The notes beneath the pieces are model-generated. The model was not told the origin of the DNA. It was given only the letters and a program-made list of their open reading frames with translations, and did not search any database. From contig CANKGI010000006.1 in the NCBI GenBank assembly GCA_947481365.1, positions 1 to 32,451 of the forward strand: DNA of 32,451 bases, given 5' to 3'. Shown piece by piece: positions 326 to 8,438 of this stretch (positions within the stretch are counted from its first letter, which is position 1; every line of letters starts with the position of its first letter). The stretch comes from Bacteroidota bacterium (GTDB taxonomy: Bacteria > Bacteroidota > Bacteroidia > UKL13-3). A program made the translations under genes and the position numbers.

Positions 326-976
326 ATGAATAATTCTTCTCCATATATTCTTTTAGCCGATGACCATGTTATCATCAGGCGAGGATTAAAAGTTTTGCTT
401 GATACAAATTTTGTTGAAAGCAGAATTGAAGAATGCGATTCTGTAAAAGATTTGATGCAACTTATCGAAACGCATCCCTTCACTCATTTAATACTCGACC
501 TTCAGTTAATCGATGGAAATGTGATGGATGTAATTCAAGAGATTAAAAAGAAATTCAAGAAACTTCCTATTTTGATTTATTCGATGAGTTCGGAGGAAAT
601 ATTTGGTACAAGAACTTTGCAATTTGGTGCCGATTCGTTTTTGAGTAAACAAAGCAATGAACAAGAAGTAATAAAAGCATTGAATTTATTTTTAAACGGA
701 AAAAAATACATCAGTCAGGAGTTACAAGATTTTCTAGCAAATCAGTTAAATAAAAAAACAAAAACACAAAACCCTTTTATGGATTTATCCGACAGAGAAA
801 TTTTGGTGTTAAATTATTTATTGAGTGGTGAAACTGTAAAAGATATTTCAACTAGGCTCGACCTTAAAGCTACTACTGTTGCAACATATAAAGCACGAAT
901 TTTTGATAAACTGAATGTTACAAATATTCTCGAGTTAGGTAATATGGCAAAACTTTATCGTTACAATAAATCCTGA
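326..976 (+). CDS. LuxR/NarL-family response regulator
   Basis: Receiver domain with DD pair, LILDLQL phospho-Asp and K in SFLSKQ; C-terminal LuxR HTH (LSDREILVLNYLLSGETVKDISTRLDLKATTVATYKARIFDKL). Confidence 0.93.
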   Translation: MNNSSPYILLADDHVIIRRGLKVLLDTNFVESRIEECDSVKDLMQLIETHPFTHLILDLQLIDGNVMDVIQEIKKKFKKLPILIYSMSSEEIFGTRTLQFGADSFLSKQSNEQEVIKALNLFLNGKKYISQELQDFLANQLNKKTKTQNPFMDLSDREILVLNYLLSGETVKDISTRLDLKATTVATYKARIFDKLNVTNILELGNMAKLYRYNKS

Positions 977-3900
977 TGTATAGTTCAAGGTTTGTATTCA
1001 TTTTTTTAATTTTTATTGAAATATTATTTTTTAATAAAAATATAAATGCTCAATCTAATCAGCATTTAATGATTACAAATTTTACATCAAAAAATGGTCT
1101 GCCACAAAACAGTGTAAATGATATGATTTTTGATTCGGGGTATTTGTGGATCTGCACCGAAGCGGGAATTGCCCGATATGATGGAATTGGATTTACAACG
1201 TATAATATTTCGAATACACCTTTTATTTTAAACGACCATTTTAAGTTTATTATTCCTACAACTAAAAACGAAAAGATAGTATTTTCATCAAATGGAAATA
1301 TTTTGCAGATTAAAGCAAATCATTTATTTCAAATTCAAAATAAGGATCAAAGAAAAATTAATCCAATTAATATAAATGGAGGAGTTTTGTCACTTGATAT
1401 GATTACTCATTTTATCTCACCAAACTTTATCAAGCTACAGCAATATTATAGCTATATACCCTCTTTTTTACCAATCAATCAGCATCGTTTTTTAATAAAA
1501 GGAAAAAGAAGTATTTTTTTATTTAACGAGGAAAATAAGTTAATCCCCATTTCAACCAACGGGAAAAAGGTGTCGTATCTGTTTTCATTTAATGATGTAA
1601 ATTATATAACAGATGAAGATAATTTGCTTTATAAAATTGATGTCGAACATGGTTTACTAGTAAGAAAATATTTTGTAGGAGATGTTACCAAAATTTTGAA
1701 TAGTAAGTCCGATGGTCAATATGAAGTTTACTGGAAATATGGAGAAAAATCAGCTGCTCTGAAATTAGGCGAAAAAATATTTCTTATAAATGGAACTGAT
1801 AAAAATGGAAATTTAACTACCGATTTGATAGTTGATCAAACACCACAAAACACTTTAATTAAAACAATTTTATATGATCATAAATCCAAACAATTATTTG
1901 TTGGAACTGAAACAAAAGGGTTGTTTGTTTACAAGAAAAAAAACATTCAATCATATACATATGAAGAGAAAGATGGACTAGGTAATAATAATGCATATTA
2001 CGCCATGTCAGCTCTCGATTCAAATACCATTTTAACCAATTATGGGCGTATGTTTTCAATACATGGAGCCGAAAAAGAATTAACTGAATTAGCAAAATTG
2101 AATCGTGAGAGTTTTATTATCGACCATAAACATGTTTTCTGGTATGCAGTAAATGACACGATTTTTAATTATGATTTTGTTTCAAAAAAGAAGAGTTTGG
2201 TTTTTTATATCGACAGTAATTATGTGTCTACATTTTTCGAATCGGGAGATACCATTTGGGTTGGTTCTGCAAAACAAATAGGATACATATACAAGAATGT
2301 TTATCACAGTTATTTTAAATTTGAAAGGAATATATTTTCAAAACCTGAGAATATTATCCGAGGACCAGATGGCAATATTTGGTTTAGCAGTTGTAAAGGA
2401 GTTTTCGAATTAGTTCATCATCAAAACAATCTTACTGCGGTTTGTTTAATACCAGATATTTGTGCCCGATATCTTTATCAATACAACAGCAAAGTTTTTG
2501 TTGCAACATACGGAAACGGATATTACATATTTGATCATGGTAGTTTTAAAAAAATGCCACTTGATGAAAATGCTTTTCTTTCAATTGCACACAGTTTTCT
2601 GATTGATAAAAATAATTTCTTATGGATAAGTTCTAACCACGGTCTTTTTAAAACTTGGATGACAGATGTTTTGAATTACCTAAATGATACTTCATCTAAA
2701 ATTTATTATCATTATTTTGGAGAAGATGATGGTTTAAGAAATATAGAATTTAACGGAGGTTGTTTTCCCAATAGTGCAGTTTTAAAAAGTGGCTATTTCT
2801 GTTTCCCTACAATGGATGGTGTTGTATTTTTTGATCCATTGACAACAGACAACGGAGTTCAGAATGAAAATATATTTATTGATAAAATAAATGTTGACGG
2901 TACTTTACTTGATTTGAATCGACCATTAATTATTAAACCAAACTCAGAAAATATTGTATTCAAGTTGTCGACACCTTATTCGGGAAATAAACAAAATTTA
3001 AGTATTGAATATAAACTAAATGGATTTAACAAAAATTGGATTAAACTTCGTGAAGGTGTTTTTGATATTGGGTTCTCTAATATTCCTTCGGGAACATATC
3101 TGCTTCAAATCAGAAAAGGGATTGGCTTAGGTTCAAAAAATTATATTGAGAAAAACATCACATTTACAGTAAGTAAAAAGTTTTACGAAACTTATTGGTT
3201 CATATCACTCATGTTTATCTTGTCTGTTTTTTTTGTGTGGGCTTTTGCAACTTTATATTACCGCAACCTAAAACGTGCAAACTTAATTCTCGAGAAAAAA
3301 ATTAGTGTTCGTACAAATGAGTTGAATTTGCTAAACGTAGAGTTAAGAACAAATCTTGATAAATTACAAGCATCAGAAAAAAGTTTAAAACAATCTGTAA
3401 ATGTAAAAAACAAGCTCATCTCAATTATATCTCACGATATTATAACGCCACTTCGATTTATTTCCATGGTTGCTCGTAATGCATTTAACAGTGATTCGAA
3501 ACAGTTAAATGATATTATAAAAGATATTGGAGGCACATCGCAAAAATTGTATTCGAATGCACAAAATATTTTAAACTGGATCAAACAGCAAAATCAACAA
3601 ATTGAAGTAAAAAAATCGAACATTGCTGTTAATCCACTGGTTGAAGAATTGGTGGAAATGGTGAGAGAAATGGCATTTAATAAAGAGAATACCATTTTAA
3701 ATTTAGTTTCGCTTGATGATGTAATCAAAACAGATAAAAATATTCTTTCCATCATCCTTCACAATTTAATTTCGAATGCCAACAAATATTGTTCGGGTGC
3801 AAAAATTACCATTACATCATTTAAAGAAAATGAAAAATATCGAATTGCAGTTGAAGATAATGGAAATGGAATTTCTGAAAATATTTTATCACGTATAAAC

Positions 3901-4062
3901 AATATCAGAAACAATAAAGAAATTGATTTATCTGAAAATGCCCTAAACGAAACCGGTTTAGGATACATTATTATTTTTGAAATGCTAAGGCAGATTGATG
4001 TCGATATAAAAATTGAAACTGTTCTGTTAAAAGGAACTAAAGTTATTTTGTTGTTTTCATAA
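976..4062 (+). CDS. Two-component regulator propeller sensor histidine kinase (periplasmic propeller, Y_Y_Y domain, TM, HisKA, HATPase_c)
   Basis: NGLPQNSVNDMIFDSGYLWICTEAGIARYDG propeller repeats; IEYKLNGFNKNWI Y_Y_Y; TM near WFISLMFILSVFFVWAF; IISHDIITPL H-box; NLISNANKY, DNGNGIS, GLGYII ATPase boxes; TGATG overlap with the upstream regulator. Confidence 0.92.
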   Translation: MYSSRFVFIFLIFIEILFFNKNINAQSNQHLMITNFTSKNGLPQNSVNDMIFDSGYLWICTEAGIARYDGIGFTTYNISNTPFILNDHFKFIIPTTKNEKIVFSSNGNILQIKANHLFQIQNKDQRKINPININGGVLSLDMITHFISPNFIKLQQYYSYIPSFLPINQHRFLIKGKRSIFLFNEENKLIPISTNGKKVSYLFSFNDVNYITDEDNLLYKIDVEHGLLVRKYFVGDVTKILNSKSDGQYEVYWKYGEKSAALKLGEKIFLINGTDKNGNLTTDLIVDQTPQNTLIKTILYDHKSKQLFVGTETKGLFVYKKKNIQSYTYEEKDGLGNNNAYYAMSALDSNTILTNYGRMFSIHGAEKELTELAKLNRESFIIDHKHVFWYAVNDTIFNYDFVSKKKSLVFYIDSNYVSTFFESGDTIWVGSAKQIGYIYKNVYHSYFKFERNIFSKPENIIRGPDGNIWFSSCKGVFELVHHQNNLTAVCLIPDICARYLYQYNSKVFVATYGNGYYIFDHGSFKKMPLDENAFLSIAHSFLIDKNNFLWISSNHGLFKTWMTDVLNYLNDTSSKIYYHYFGEDDGLRNIEFNGGCFPNSAVLKSGYFCFPTMDGVVFFDPLTTDNGVQNENIFIDKINVDGTLLDLNRPLIIKPNSENIVFKLSTPYSGNKQNLSIEYKLNGFNKNWIKLREGVFDIGFSNIPSGTYLLQIRKGIGLGSKNYIEKNITFTVSKKFYETYWFISLMFILSVFFVWAFATLYYRNLKRANLILEKKISVRTNELNLLNVELRTNLDKLQASEKSLKQSVNVKNKLISIISHDIITPLRFISMVARNAFNSDSKQLNDIIKDIGGTSQKLYSNAQNILNWIKQQNQQIEVKKSNIAVNPLVEELVEMVREMAFNKENTILNLVSLDDVIKTDKNILSIILHNLISNANKYCSGAKITITSFKENEKYRIAVEDNGNGISENILSRINNIRNNKEIDLSENALNETGLGYIIIFEMLRQIDVDIKIETVLLKGTKVILLFS

Positions 4063-4090: not shown

Positions 4091-5425
4091 ATGACAAAAC
4101 TCATTCGTGGTTTAAATTTACGACAAGCTGTTGCTATCAATATGATTGATATGGTTGGCATTGGCCCATTTATTACCATACCATACATTATTGGTGCAAT
4201 GAGCGGACCGCAATGTATTTTAGCATGGTTGCTTGGTGCAATTTTGTCGCTTATGGATGGCTCGGTTTGGGCCGAACTGGGCGCAAAATGGCCCGAAGCA
4301 GGAGGGAGTTATGCATTTCTGCAAAATCTTTTTGGCAAAGAAAAATGGGGGAGATTGCTTTCGTTTTTGTACATATGGCAAACAACTTTTCAGGCTCCAC
4401 TTGTTATCGCATCAGGTGCAATTGGTTTTGCCCAATATTTAACTTACCTCATTCCGTTAGATACGATACAACAAAAAATTGTTTCGGGTACACTCATTAT
4501 TTTCATTACGTTTTTATTGTACCGCAAAATATCCGACATCGGAAAAATATCCGTAGTACTCGGAATTATTGTTGTTGGTACCATTTTGTGGTTAATCGTT
4601 TCGGGATTAATGAATTTGAATTTTCAAATGGCATTTACATTTAATAAAGATGCGATGGATTTTACACCTGCGTTTTTTTTCGGATTGGGAACAGCATCTA
4701 CTAAAACAGTTTATTCGTTCTTGGGATATTATAATGTTTGCCATTTAGGCTCAGAAATAAAAGCCCCGGAGAAAAATATACCACGAAGTATTTTTATTTC
4801 TATTGCAGGTATCACCATTTTATATCTGTTCATGCAAGTTGCTATTTCAGGAGTAATTCCTTGGCAACAAGCAAAAGATTCGCCCTTTATTGTGAGTGCA
4901 TTTTTCGAACAAATTTATGGAAGTACAGCAGCTACTTTTGCAACAGCTTTGGTTCTAATTATTGCGGTATCATCTCTTTTTGCTGTTATGCTGGGATACT
5001 CGAGAGTGCCATATGCTGCTGCAGTTGATGGAAATTATTTTTCAGTTTTTGCCAAAGTTCATCCCACAAAAAATTTTCCCAATTATTCGCTGATAATTTT
5101 AGCCTCGGTGGCTTTTGTTTTTAGCTTGTTGTTTAAAATGAAAGAAGTGATTACGGCAATTATTGTGATGCGAATTATTATACAGTTTATCGGACAAAGT
5201 ATTGGATTGATGCTCTTGCATTACAAAAAGAAAGACTTGCATTTGCCATACAGAATGTTGTTTTTCCCTATTCCGCCAATTATCGGAATCATTGTTTGGG
5301 CTTTTATTTTTTTCTCAGCAGAATGGGAATTTATAGCCGGTGCCATCACATTTATTTTTATCGGGATTTTACTTTTCTTGTTTCTGTCCAAGCAAAAAAA
5401 TAAATGGCCTTTTGAAATTTTATGA
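4091..5425 (+). CDS. APC superfamily amino acid permease
   Basis: About 12 hydrophobic segments; N-terminal NLRQAVAINMIDMVGIGPFITIPYIIGAMSGP typical of APC permeases. Confidence 0.9.
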   Translation: MTKLIRGLNLRQAVAINMIDMVGIGPFITIPYIIGAMSGPQCILAWLLGAILSLMDGSVWAELGAKWPEAGGSYAFLQNLFGKEKWGRLLSFLYIWQTTFQAPLVIASGAIGFAQYLTYLIPLDTIQQKIVSGTLIIFITFLLYRKISDIGKISVVLGIIVVGTILWLIVSGLMNLNFQMAFTFNKDAMDFTPAFFFGLGTASTKTVYSFLGYYNVCHLGSEIKAPEKNIPRSIFISIAGITILYLFMQVAISGVIPWQQAKDSPFIVSAFFEQIYGSTAATFATALVLIIAVSSLFAVMLGYSRVPYAAAVDGNYFSVFAKVHPTKNFPNYSLIILASVAFVFSLLFKMKEVITAIIVMRIIIQFIGQSIGLMLLHYKKKDLHLPYRMLFFPIPPIIGIIVWAFIFFSAEWEFIAGAITFIFIGILLFLFLSKQKNKWPFEIL

Positions 5426-5997
5426 CAAACACATTCAAATATTTTATAATGTATAAACCATACGGGGTGCTTAGTCAGCGCGACACGAAAGGTTATAAAA
5501 AGAAAATAGGCCTTGATGAATTTTATCCTTTTCCTAAAGGTGTTTATCCTGTAGGAAGATTAGATGAAGACAGTGAAGGATTGTTGTTGATGACTTCGGA
5601 TAACAAAATGAGTATTCATATTCGCAGTGCAAAAATTGAGAAAGAATATTGGGTGCAGGTTGATGGTATCATTACAGATGAAGCTGTAAAAAAATTACAA
5701 TCAGGAGTGACCATTACTGTTGATAAAATACCCTATCAAACTTTGCAATGTGATGCGCATCTTTTAATAGACGAGCCTGTTTTACCCGAACGGTTTCCTC
5801 CATCTCGAGCAGGCAGACATAGGCCGGGTTCTTGGGTTTCAATCACATTACGCGAAGGTAAATTTCGTCAAGTTCGAAAGATGACAGCAGCAGTTGGTTT
5901 TCCAACTTTGCGATTGGTACGTGCTAGAATTGGTGAAATGAAAATAATAGATTTTAAACCTGGAGATGTTATCGAATTAGAGCGTTTTGTTTTATGA
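5422..5997 (+). CDS. rluE: rRNA large subunit pseudouridine synthase, RluE/RsuA family
   Basis: MYKPYGVLSQ, GRLDEDSEGLLLMTSD catalytic motif, GKFRQVRKMTAAVGFPTLRLVR; ATGA overlap with the permease. Confidence 0.88.
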   Translation: MTNTFKYFIMYKPYGVLSQRDTKGYKKKIGLDEFYPFPKGVYPVGRLDEDSEGLLLMTSDNKMSIHIRSAKIEKEYWVQVDGIITDEAVKKLQSGVTITVDKIPYQTLQCDAHLLIDEPVLPERFPPSRAGRHRPGSWVSITLREGKFRQVRKMTAAVGFPTLRLVRARIGEMKIIDFKPGDVIELERFVL

Positions 5998-6803
5998 TTT
6001 TTGAAATCGAATTAGAAAAATTTCTTCACCAAGAAAATTTGGTCTTCAGTAAATCAGATTCAGTTTTTCCATTCTATAAAATAGAAAACCATCATCTTGT
6101 TTTGCATTGTATTTCTTTAAAAAAGTTTTCAAAGGCAAAAATAAGTGATTCATATTTTGCAGATATCTGTGATGATTTGATTTCTAAAAAAATGAAAGTG
6201 ATTCATTTGTGGGAGGATGTTTGGCAAAATGAAAATGAATTGGTTAAAAATCGCATATTAGCTGTTTGTGGGAAGTCGAAACGCATACATGCACGCCAAA
6301 CAGAGGTTAAACGGCTGAACAAAAAGGAAACGGATGCTTTTTTAAATGCAAATCATTTGCAACACACAACCAATGCCTATTATAAGTATGCTTTGATGCT
6401 AAAAGACGAATTAGTAGCCGTGGCAACTTTTAGTAAAAGCCGAGTGATGAATGATGGTCCAGTATTATATCGTTCGTATGAGTTGGTAAGGTTTTGTAGT
6501 TTGAAAGGAACTACTGTAAATGGCGGTTTAAGTAAATTATTAAAACATTTTATTGTTGAACATCATCCGGCACACATCATGACTTATGCTGATAAAGACT
6601 GGAGTTCAGGAGAGAGTTATACCAAAAACGGGTTTGCCTTTTTGGAGAAATTACCGCCACAATTCTTTTTTATTCATCCCGATAAAATGATTCGAATATA
6701 TGCTCATCGTTTAGATTTAACGGAAAAGGAATTGTTGGCAAAAGGTTACCTTAAAATAGTTAATTCGGGTAATGCTAAATTTATTCTCGACAGAAGAAAA
6801 TAA
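5994..6803 (+). CDS. Stand-alone protein with a degenerate VSR/Hef-like N-terminal half and a C-terminal phage-type Mom-like (GNAT-fold) domain
   Basis: VIHLWEDVWQNENELVKNRI resembles the ...IhIFEDEW..k.eivkSRi segment of phage VSR-like/Hef-like endonucleases; ELVRFCSLKGTTVNGGLSKLLKHFI...IMTYADKDWSSGESYTKNGF resembles the associated Mom-like domain; ATGA overlap with rluE. Confidence 0.6.
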   Translation: MIFEIELEKFLHQENLVFSKSDSVFPFYKIENHHLVLHCISLKKFSKAKISDSYFADICDDLISKKMKVIHLWEDVWQNENELVKNRILAVCGKSKRIHARQTEVKRLNKKETDAFLNANHLQHTTNAYYKYALMLKDELVAVATFSKSRVMNDGPVLYRSYELVRFCSLKGTTVNGGLSKLLKHFIVEHHPAHIMTYADKDWSSGESYTKNGFAFLEKLPPQFFFIHPDKMIRIYAHRLDLTEKELLAKGYLKIVNSGNAKFILDRRK

Positions 6804-6835: not shown

Positions 6836-7762
6836 TTGAATACGAATCATAATCTTATAATTATACTTGGCGCAACGGCAACAGGTAAAACAAAACTTGC
6901 CGCACATTTGGCATCACAGCTTAATACCGAAATCATTAGTGCAGATTCTCGTCAGGTGTATCGTGATATGAATATTGGTACCGGAAAAGATCTGGATGAA
7001 TATGAAGTGAATGGGAAACACATTCCATATCATCTTATCAATATTATTGAAGCAGGAGATGAATATAATTTGCATTTTTTTCAGCGTGATTTTTTTGAAA
7101 CCTACAATGAAATTACTTCTAGAAATTTGATTCCAATTTTATGTGGTGGAACAAGTATGTATATTAATGGAGTGATGAGAGGCCATGCACATACACCGAT
7201 TCCCGAAAACAGAGAATTAAGAATTCAACTTGAGGGAATGGACAAAAAGCAATTGGTAGAGTATTTTATTGCATTGCCCGAAACACCATATAAAAGCAAA
7301 GCTGATACATCAACAATCATTCGCATTCTACGAGCAATCGAAATATGTACTTGGGAACAAACAAATATTCGTGAAGAAAATGAATCGTCAAAAAAATTAA
7401 ATCCGATAATTTTTGGGTTAGACACTGATACAGAAATTAGAAGGAAAAAAATTGAAGAGCGTTTGATTTATCGTCTTAAAAACGGAATGATAGAAGAAGT
7501 TCAGTCATTACTTACTAAAGGTGTGAGCGAACAAAAATTGATAGCTTACGGACTCGAATATAAATTTGTTGTGTTACATCTTCAGAAGGTATTAACGTTT
7601 GATGAGATGCAAAAACAACTCACTATTGCCATTCATCAATTTGCAAAACGACAAATGACATTCTTTAGAAAAATGGAACGTGAGGGCGCAAAAATTAATT
7701 GGATTGATGCTGCTTTATCATTGGAAGAACAATTAGCGCAAATAAATTCTCTTTTGAAATAA
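6836..7762 (+). CDS. miaA: tRNA dimethylallyltransferase
   Basis: P-loop GATATGKT, ISADSRQVYRDMNIGTGK, LCGGTSMYINGVM; TTG start implied. Confidence 0.92.
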   Translation: MNTNHNLIIILGATATGKTKLAAHLASQLNTEIISADSRQVYRDMNIGTGKDLDEYEVNGKHIPYHLINIIEAGDEYNLHFFQRDFFETYNEITSRNLIPILCGGTSMYINGVMRGHAHTPIPENRELRIQLEGMDKKQLVEYFIALPETPYKSKADTSTIIRILRAIEICTWEQTNIREENESSKKLNPIIFGLDTDTEIRRKKIEERLIYRLKNGMIEEVQSLLTKGVSEQKLIAYGLEYKFVVLHLQKVLTFDEMQKQLTIAIHQFAKRQMTFFRKMEREGAKINWIDAALSLEEQLAQINSLLK

Positions 7763-7783: not shown

Positions 7784-8074
7784 ATGAGTTCAAAAGATAT
7801 AATCAATTTTTTAAAACACGAAAAGCAAAACCTAAACAAACAGTTTGGAGTTGTTGATATTGCTGTGTTTGGCTCATTTGCTAAAAATGAAAATGTGAGT
7901 TCGAGTGATGTCGATATTTTAGTTGAATTTGATAAAGTTAGTTTTGATAAATACATTAAACTGAAAATATTTTTAGAGAATAAACTTGCTGCAAACATTG
8001 ATCTTATCAGAAAAGGACCGCACCTTTCATCAGATTTTCTTTCATCCATAGAAAAAGATCTGATTTATGCCTAA
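7784..8074 (+). CDS. mntA: MNT-domain nucleotidyltransferase, MntA-type antitoxin
   Basis: GSFAKNENVSSSDVDILVEF matches GSx10DxD minimal nucleotidyltransferase; overlaps a HepT-like gene by 8 nt. Confidence 0.88.
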   Translation: MSSKDIINFLKHEKQNLNKQFGVVDIAVFGSFAKNENVSSSDVDILVEFDKVSFDKYIKLKIFLENKLAANIDLIRKGPHLSSDFLSSIEKDLIYA

Positions 8075-8438
8075 TCAAAAAATTATTCACGATAGGCTGA
8101 AATTAATTCTCGAATCAATTAATCTTATTCTAGAACGAACTGAACGAATAAAAACTGCCAAAGATTTTGTGAAAGATAAAGATGGAATTGAGTTAATGGA
8201 TTCGATTGCTATGCGTTTGCAGATGATAGGTGAAAATGCAAAACGAATTAATAAAGAACAAAATAACTTTTTTGAATTAAAACTAAATCTTGATCCAGAT
8301 TCAATTATTCGGTTCCGCGATTTTATTTCTCATCATTACGAAAAAACTGATTACGAAATCATCTTTGATATTTGTATTCATCATATTGTTATGATGAAAA
8401 AGCAGATAGATGATTATTTTTTGGAACATAAATCTTAA
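8067..8438 (+). CDS. hepT: HEPN-domain (DUF86) toxin, HepT-like RNase
   Basis: RDFISHHY matches RX4HXY of HepT; helical protein directly overlapping the MNT gene. Confidence 0.88.
   Translation: MPNQKIIHDRLKLILESINLILERTERIKTAKDFVKDKDGIELMDSIAMRLQMIGENAKRINKEQNNFFELKLNLDPDSIIRFRDFISHHYEKTDYEIIFDICIHHIVMMKKQIDDYFLEHKS

Follow-up and report, generated by a model that had tools for sequence, protein, structure and literature searches.

We analyzed a stretch of 32,451 nucleotides from a Bacteroidota bacterium (the window; contig CANKGI010000006.1 of assembly GCA_947481365.1), in which a gene on the forward strand at positions 5994-6803, here given the working name X, encodes a protein of 269 amino acids. 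X begins with an ATG codon that overlaps rluE through the sequence ATGA, and a miaA-family open reading frame (ORF) starts 32 bp past its end. An earlier reading of the DNA letters (the original prediction) had placed these genes correctly, and missed that the miaA beside X is a divergent second paralogue; we use the working name MiaA2 for the divergent MiaA clade that includes this ORF (6836-7762). A Pfam scan gave no match for the X protein of the window. In PHROGs, X matches homing endonucleases at 1e-52 and 3e-44 (phrog_3339 and phrog_559, both Hef families) and, more weakly, Mom-like DNA modification proteins (phrog_1384; residues 93-239, 2e-8). The ORF is confirmed as a real gene and not a chance reading frame, because an intact copy is near-universal in the window's family, 405 relatives are found in the GTDB genome collection, and the ratio of non-synonymous to synonymous substitution rates (dN/dS) is well below 1.

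Table 1. Features of the X-miaA2 locus, with positions in the window.
Feature	Positions	Strand	Basis
Gene X, predicted domesticated Hef/Mom-like protein, 269 aa	5994..6803	+	ORF, PHROGs, AlphaFold2 model and Foldseek, single-copy conservation
X N-terminal VSR-like (EDxHD-type) nuclease-fold half, residues ~1-91	5994..6266	+	Catalytic residues lost, WEDxW loop kept; Foldseek whole-length phage Hef match
X C-terminal Mom-like GNAT half, residues ~92-269	6267..6800	+	8bv8 top fold match; dN/dS 0.03-0.18
MiaA2, divergent paralogue of tRNA dimethylallyltransferase MiaA, 308 aa, TTG start	6836..7762	+	Second IPPT gene; own clade; catalytic residues kept
RluE-type 23S rRNA pseudouridine synthase, overlaps X start	5422..5997	+	Pfam PseudoU_synth_2; synteny

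The AlphaFold2 model of X, built with 61 natural sequences, has a predicted local distance difference test score (pLDDT) of 97.1 and a predicted template modelling score (pTM) of 0.91. Foldseek comparison of this model with the PDB ranked the Mom protein of phage Mu first (8bv8; E 3e-6), followed by ordinary GNAT proteins, while the best matches among viral models were Hef or 'endonuclease-like' proteins (E 6e-27, template modelling (TM) score 0.89). This TM score is normalized to X, and therefore both halves of X match the phage Hefs. The structure search thus returned the Mom/GNAT and Hef/VSR-like proteins that the original prediction had called for, and its Mom-like C-terminal half is borne out by phrog_1384 and by the first rank of 8bv8. 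Relatives of X occur in 401 phage records, and Campylobacter phage Hefs are 31-33% identical to X across 99% of its length. Like X, these proteins and the Hef of phage RaK2 carry a VSR-like half followed by a Mom-like half (TM 0.8-0.9); they differ in having extra N-terminal segments (about 485-590 amino acids in total) and an intact nuclease site, whereas X is a conserved chromosomal gene.

The relationship of X to Mu Mom (PF25680, 8bv8) lies in the shared GNAT fold and in the alignment of the conserved E, R, D, G, Y and F motif positions; the sequence likeness is weak, X has an additional dead nuclease half, and the partner of Mom is Com, where the putative partner of X is a MiaA. The conserved positions of the Mom-like half are R101, F116, H121, E163, R166, G177-G178, K181, D200, Y209 and K262, and E163, R166, D200, G206 and Y209 of X align with E108, R111, D149, G156 and Y159 of Mu Mom. 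PF25680 matches four of the 61 relatives of X, weakly, and the X proteins of the window's family do not reach its curated cut-off. The sole match above this cut-off, in genome G022, is not X; it is a genuine Mom-family gene of a same-family genome, separate from X (L129, G022:C38:795-1397; PF25680 E 3e-58). Searching the PDB sequences with a profile of X gave no match, and a viral contig scan with the single X sequence found no relatives. Alignment of the X profile to the single Mu Mom sequence with hhalign gave an overall probability of 0.2%, with the FADxxxxxG..Y motif nonetheless aligned.

Alignment of X with the phage Hefs reveals the loss of the nuclease site. The D, N-G, H, H and K residues (E in nine, D in one) are kept in all ten phage relatives, and the complete set is found in 0 of 91 Bacteroidota copies of X; the WEDxW loop closing the nuclease-fold domain is kept in most of the latter, with its E, D and W present in 76-83 of the 91. 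X is thus homologous to the Hefs across both halves but lacks intact VSR/EDxHD-type residues, and this alignment, together with the whole-length Foldseek matches to Hefs, upholds the proposal of a VSR-type half without an intact catalytic cluster. A comparable architecture is seen in jumbo phages, where Mom domains are joined to restriction endonuclease (REase) folds in fusions proposed to serve DNA protection and, through an active nuclease, attack (PMC7824862); in X, which is cellular, the nuclease is dead.

In 13 pairs of closely related species, dN/dS ranges over 0.03-0.18 in the Mom-like half of X, 0.16-0.66 in its N-terminal half and 0.08-0.36 in MiaA2. Purifying selection on the Mom-like half is strong. 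In a tree that included only ten phage sequences, a single branch with a support of 100 divides the Bacteroidota copies from those of phages. The domestication of a phage module in the Bacteroidota, as first suggested, is well supported.

Within the window's family X is present in 34 of 35 genomes (its own included) as one copy each, except for two partial pieces in one fragmented genome; this near-universal single copy is not the patchy insertion of a homing or mobile element. X was absent from 23 sampled genomes of other families of the class, 22 of which were rechecked with a profile. The best 80 of the 405 GTDB relatives are all from Bacteroidota and include Larkinella, Runella, Pedobacter, Emticicia, Flexithrix, Solitalea and metagenome-assembled genomes (MAGs) of Prevotellaceae. 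Of 81 genomes in each family, X is carried by 40 in f25 and by 68 in f31; on grounds of gene similarity, f25 is taken as the Pedobacter family and f31 as that of Larkinella/Runella. Among 297 genomes sampled evenly across the phylum, six have X above threshold, five of them strongly. The PADLOC defence models do not match X, and this result and its single-copy conservation rule out a defence-island gene.

IPPT genes occur twice in the genome of the window: the canonical gene is on contig C178 (E 7e-79), and the other adjoins X (E 8e-52). In a tree built from 63 canonical and 53 divergent MiaA sequences the two clades separate with a support of 100, and the ORF at 6836-7762 groups apart from the single MiaA of X-less Bacteroidota and so is not the canonical orthologue. 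The paralogue counts and the tree rule out canonical miaA as the partner of X. MiaA2 of the window scores 185.8 bits against TIGR00174 of NCBIfam (cut-off 148.65) and keeps the residues matching T19, K23, T24, D42, K56, R217 and K280 of the E. coli enzyme, which are catalytic or bind dimethylallyl diphosphate (DMAPP) or tRNA (PMC8234997). In passing the family cut-off and keeping catalytic residues it resembles canonical MiaA (TIGR00174; 2zm5/3foz, 2qgn, 3crm), but it forms a separate clade with its own signatures, is a second gene in addition to the canonical one, and in some genomes lacks the insertion domain. Compared with canonical Bacteroidota MiaA, it has GTGKD for GTAKP, GLEYK for VGYxE, an extra R213 and mostly Y at H67, with YHLID as a further signature; the GLEYK and GTGK motifs also served to sort the sequences, and their fixation is partly by construction. 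MiaA2 also matches an adenylate isopentenyltransferase (PDB 3a8t, E 5e-14; PF01745 weakly).

The length of MiaA2 is bimodal, the spacing from GGTGxY to GLEYK being 123-132 amino acids in nearly all sequences (two are longer) and 73-87 in seven. In MiaA the insertion domain and the core form the tRNA cleft (PMC8234997). Most MiaA2 proteins keep this domain and the residues matching the tRNA-binding K56, R167, R170 and K280, and the seven short forms, from several lineages (L245, L246, L247, L248, L328, L329 and L330), lack around 40-50 residues, comprising most of this tRNA-clamping domain and the equivalents of R167 and R170.

The distributions of the two genes are closely matched. MiaA2 is present in 67 of 67 X-bearing genomes of three families (31 of the window's family, 14 of f25 and 22 of f31) and in 0 of 20 X-less genomes of the same families, the class of some genomes in these counts being read from hit score and position and not from a fetched ORF. 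On a canonical-MiaA tree covering 77 of these genomes, X changes state a minimum of six times, with good branch support for four of the changes, and MiaA2 switches on every occasion. This co-occurrence is strong but is not a proof, because four to six events are few for a formal test. The linkage is operon-like: MiaA2 lies directly 3' of X, on the same strand and within 600 bp, at 21 of 30 loci of the window's family, in 56 of 77 named genomes with enough sequence, and at 18 of 30 loci of f25 and eight of ten of f31; at none of the surveyed loci is it upstream of X. When MiaA2 does not adjoin X (20 genomes), it is found elsewhere in 17 (14 full-length and three short). The coupling to RNA-modification genes in the original prediction therefore stands, with two refinements: the linkage to a miaA-type gene extends across the Bacteroidota, but the partner is MiaA2 and not canonical MiaA, and rluE lies beside X or shortly 3' of miaA2 at only some of the loci, most of which belong to the window's family, so that rluE is ruled out as the main partner.

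Two X-bearing genomes, G018 and G004 (L159/L240 and L233; 98% and 91% complete), have MiaA2 as their only MiaA, a pattern which hints that MiaA2 may replace the canonical enzyme.

We propose, with moderate confidence, that X is a domesticated phage-derived Hef/Mom protein that forms a two-gene system with MiaA2 acting on adenine, most likely in tRNA. MiaA acts on the N6 position of adenine in RNA (PMC8234997) and Mom on that of adenine in DNA (PMC7824862). A MiaA-type and a Mom-type protein that are co-inherited and usually co-directional most plausibly provide two steps, or two subunits, with a single adenine or RNA as their target, and the partnership may be a physical one or lie in a shared pathway. 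MiaA2 would prenylate, or similarly alkylate, an adenine that most likely lies in the anticodon loop of certain tRNAs; X would bind the same RNA and may modify it, adding or completing a second modification by acyl transfer from an acyl-CoA-type donor (CoA, coenzyme A), with its nuclease-fold half acting as a scaffold for binding or structure. The Mom-like half probably remains enzymatic, since the near-invariant E163, R166, D200, Y209 and K181, which are common to the phage Hefs and in part to Mu Mom, suggest retained catalysis. More tentatively, X and MiaA2 could together make an undescribed hypermodified adenosine in the RNA of Bacteroidota, bearing a prenyl-type group from MiaA2 and a Mom-type group from X, on tRNAs or at a position other than those of canonical MiaA, X having been recruited into the translation machinery.

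Several observations weigh against this proposal. A MiaA2-class gene is present in approximately 38 of the 297 genomes of the phylum sample, compared with five that have a strong X, and a search for a hidden X in eight MiaA2-bearing, X-less genomes (G041, G284, G292, G068, G072, G128, G091 and G210) found none. MiaA2 occurs in many lineages without X and therefore does not need it; X goes with MiaA2 and not the reverse, MiaA2 is the wider element, and a strict one-to-one pair is ruled out. Three of the 20 unlinked X-bearing genomes are MAGs with no detectable MiaA2, possibly through incompleteness. In the Mom-like half, neither the CoA-binding loop nor a counterpart of Mom S124 could be located confidently in the alignment. 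All seven short MiaA2 proteins come from X-bearing genomes, compared with 0 of 16 X-less MiaA2 proteins examined; this tie between insertion-domain loss and X is not statistically strong and is suggestive only, but it looks as if X supplied substrate binding.

The last observation would fit a different division of labor, in which both enzyme halves of X are dead and X, with no catalysis of its own, serves as a subunit for RNA binding or specificity that presents the substrate to the MiaA2 prenyltransferase. The nuclease half is already dead, and seven X-bearing genomes have lost the tRNA-clamping domain with its R167/R170 equivalents from MiaA2; however, the near-invariant polar residues of the Mom-like half argue for retained catalysis, and we consider a purely binding role unlikely, if a serious alternative. 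The activity of Mu Mom on adenine in DNA, and the jumbo-phage fusions of Mom to REase-fold domains (PMC7824862), would also accord with X as a chromosomal Mom-like DNA-modifying or anti-phage enzyme that merely shares a transcript with miaA2. Such an enzyme is improbable given that X is single-copy and almost universal in the family, is not an island gene and has no PADLOC match, and that X and MiaA2 switch together six times.

Slightly less probable still is an action of MiaA2 and X on a free adenine nucleotide, such as a cytokinin-like or signalling molecule, instead of RNA. Adenylate isopentenyltransferases are related to MiaA2 and the tRNA-clamping domain is absent from some of its members, but most MiaA2 proteins retain the insertion domain and the tRNA-binding matches, and the ancestry of X lies among nucleic-acid enzymes. 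Homing endonucleases often adjoin conserved genes. As the phage relatives of X are themselves homing endonucleases, X might be a decaying one that landed by chance beside miaA2; this is scarcely credible and is ruled out by dN/dS: every one of the 13 species pairs gives a value far below 1, and the constraint on the Mom-like half is as strong as that on MiaA2. Furthermore, X and MiaA2 are lost together even when unlinked, and the sampled Bacteroidota copies form one group apart from the phages.

If X and MiaA2 do act together on adenine, they would represent a branch of tRNA (or other adenine) modification that has been overlooked, in which a second MiaA works with a partner of phage origin, and a phage protein for DNA attack and modification would have been turned into a cellular modification factor. 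The pair extends over Pedobacter, Larkinella, Runella, Emticicia and Solitalea as well as many uncultured Bacteroidota, and this branch would have escaped notice because databases give the two MiaA copies a single name. Our search of the open literature, with subscription papers outside its scope, found no cellular nuclease-dead Hef/Mom form and no MiaA2 clade tied to one. The proposal predicts a nucleoside present in species with X and MiaA2 and absent from close relatives with neither, such as the congeneric G351/G372 pair.

MiaA2 without X occurs in other lineages of the phylum (L255-L258, L260-L270 and L232), and at most of the loci L258 and L261-L270 it lies between a sensor-kinase-like gene and a conserved gene of around 430-460 codons; it may have a different partner there. 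In the window itself, a LuxR-type response regulator and, after it, a large sensor kinase that carries two-component-regulator propeller repeats (326-4062) lie upstream of the permease-rluE-X-miaA2 run. Just 3' of miaA2 is a nucleotidyltransferase/HepT pair (7784-8438, forward strand; PF01909 and PF01934, MNT/HepT-type toxin-antitoxin), the nucleotidyltransferase of which also follows miaA2 in a genome of the same genus (L031).
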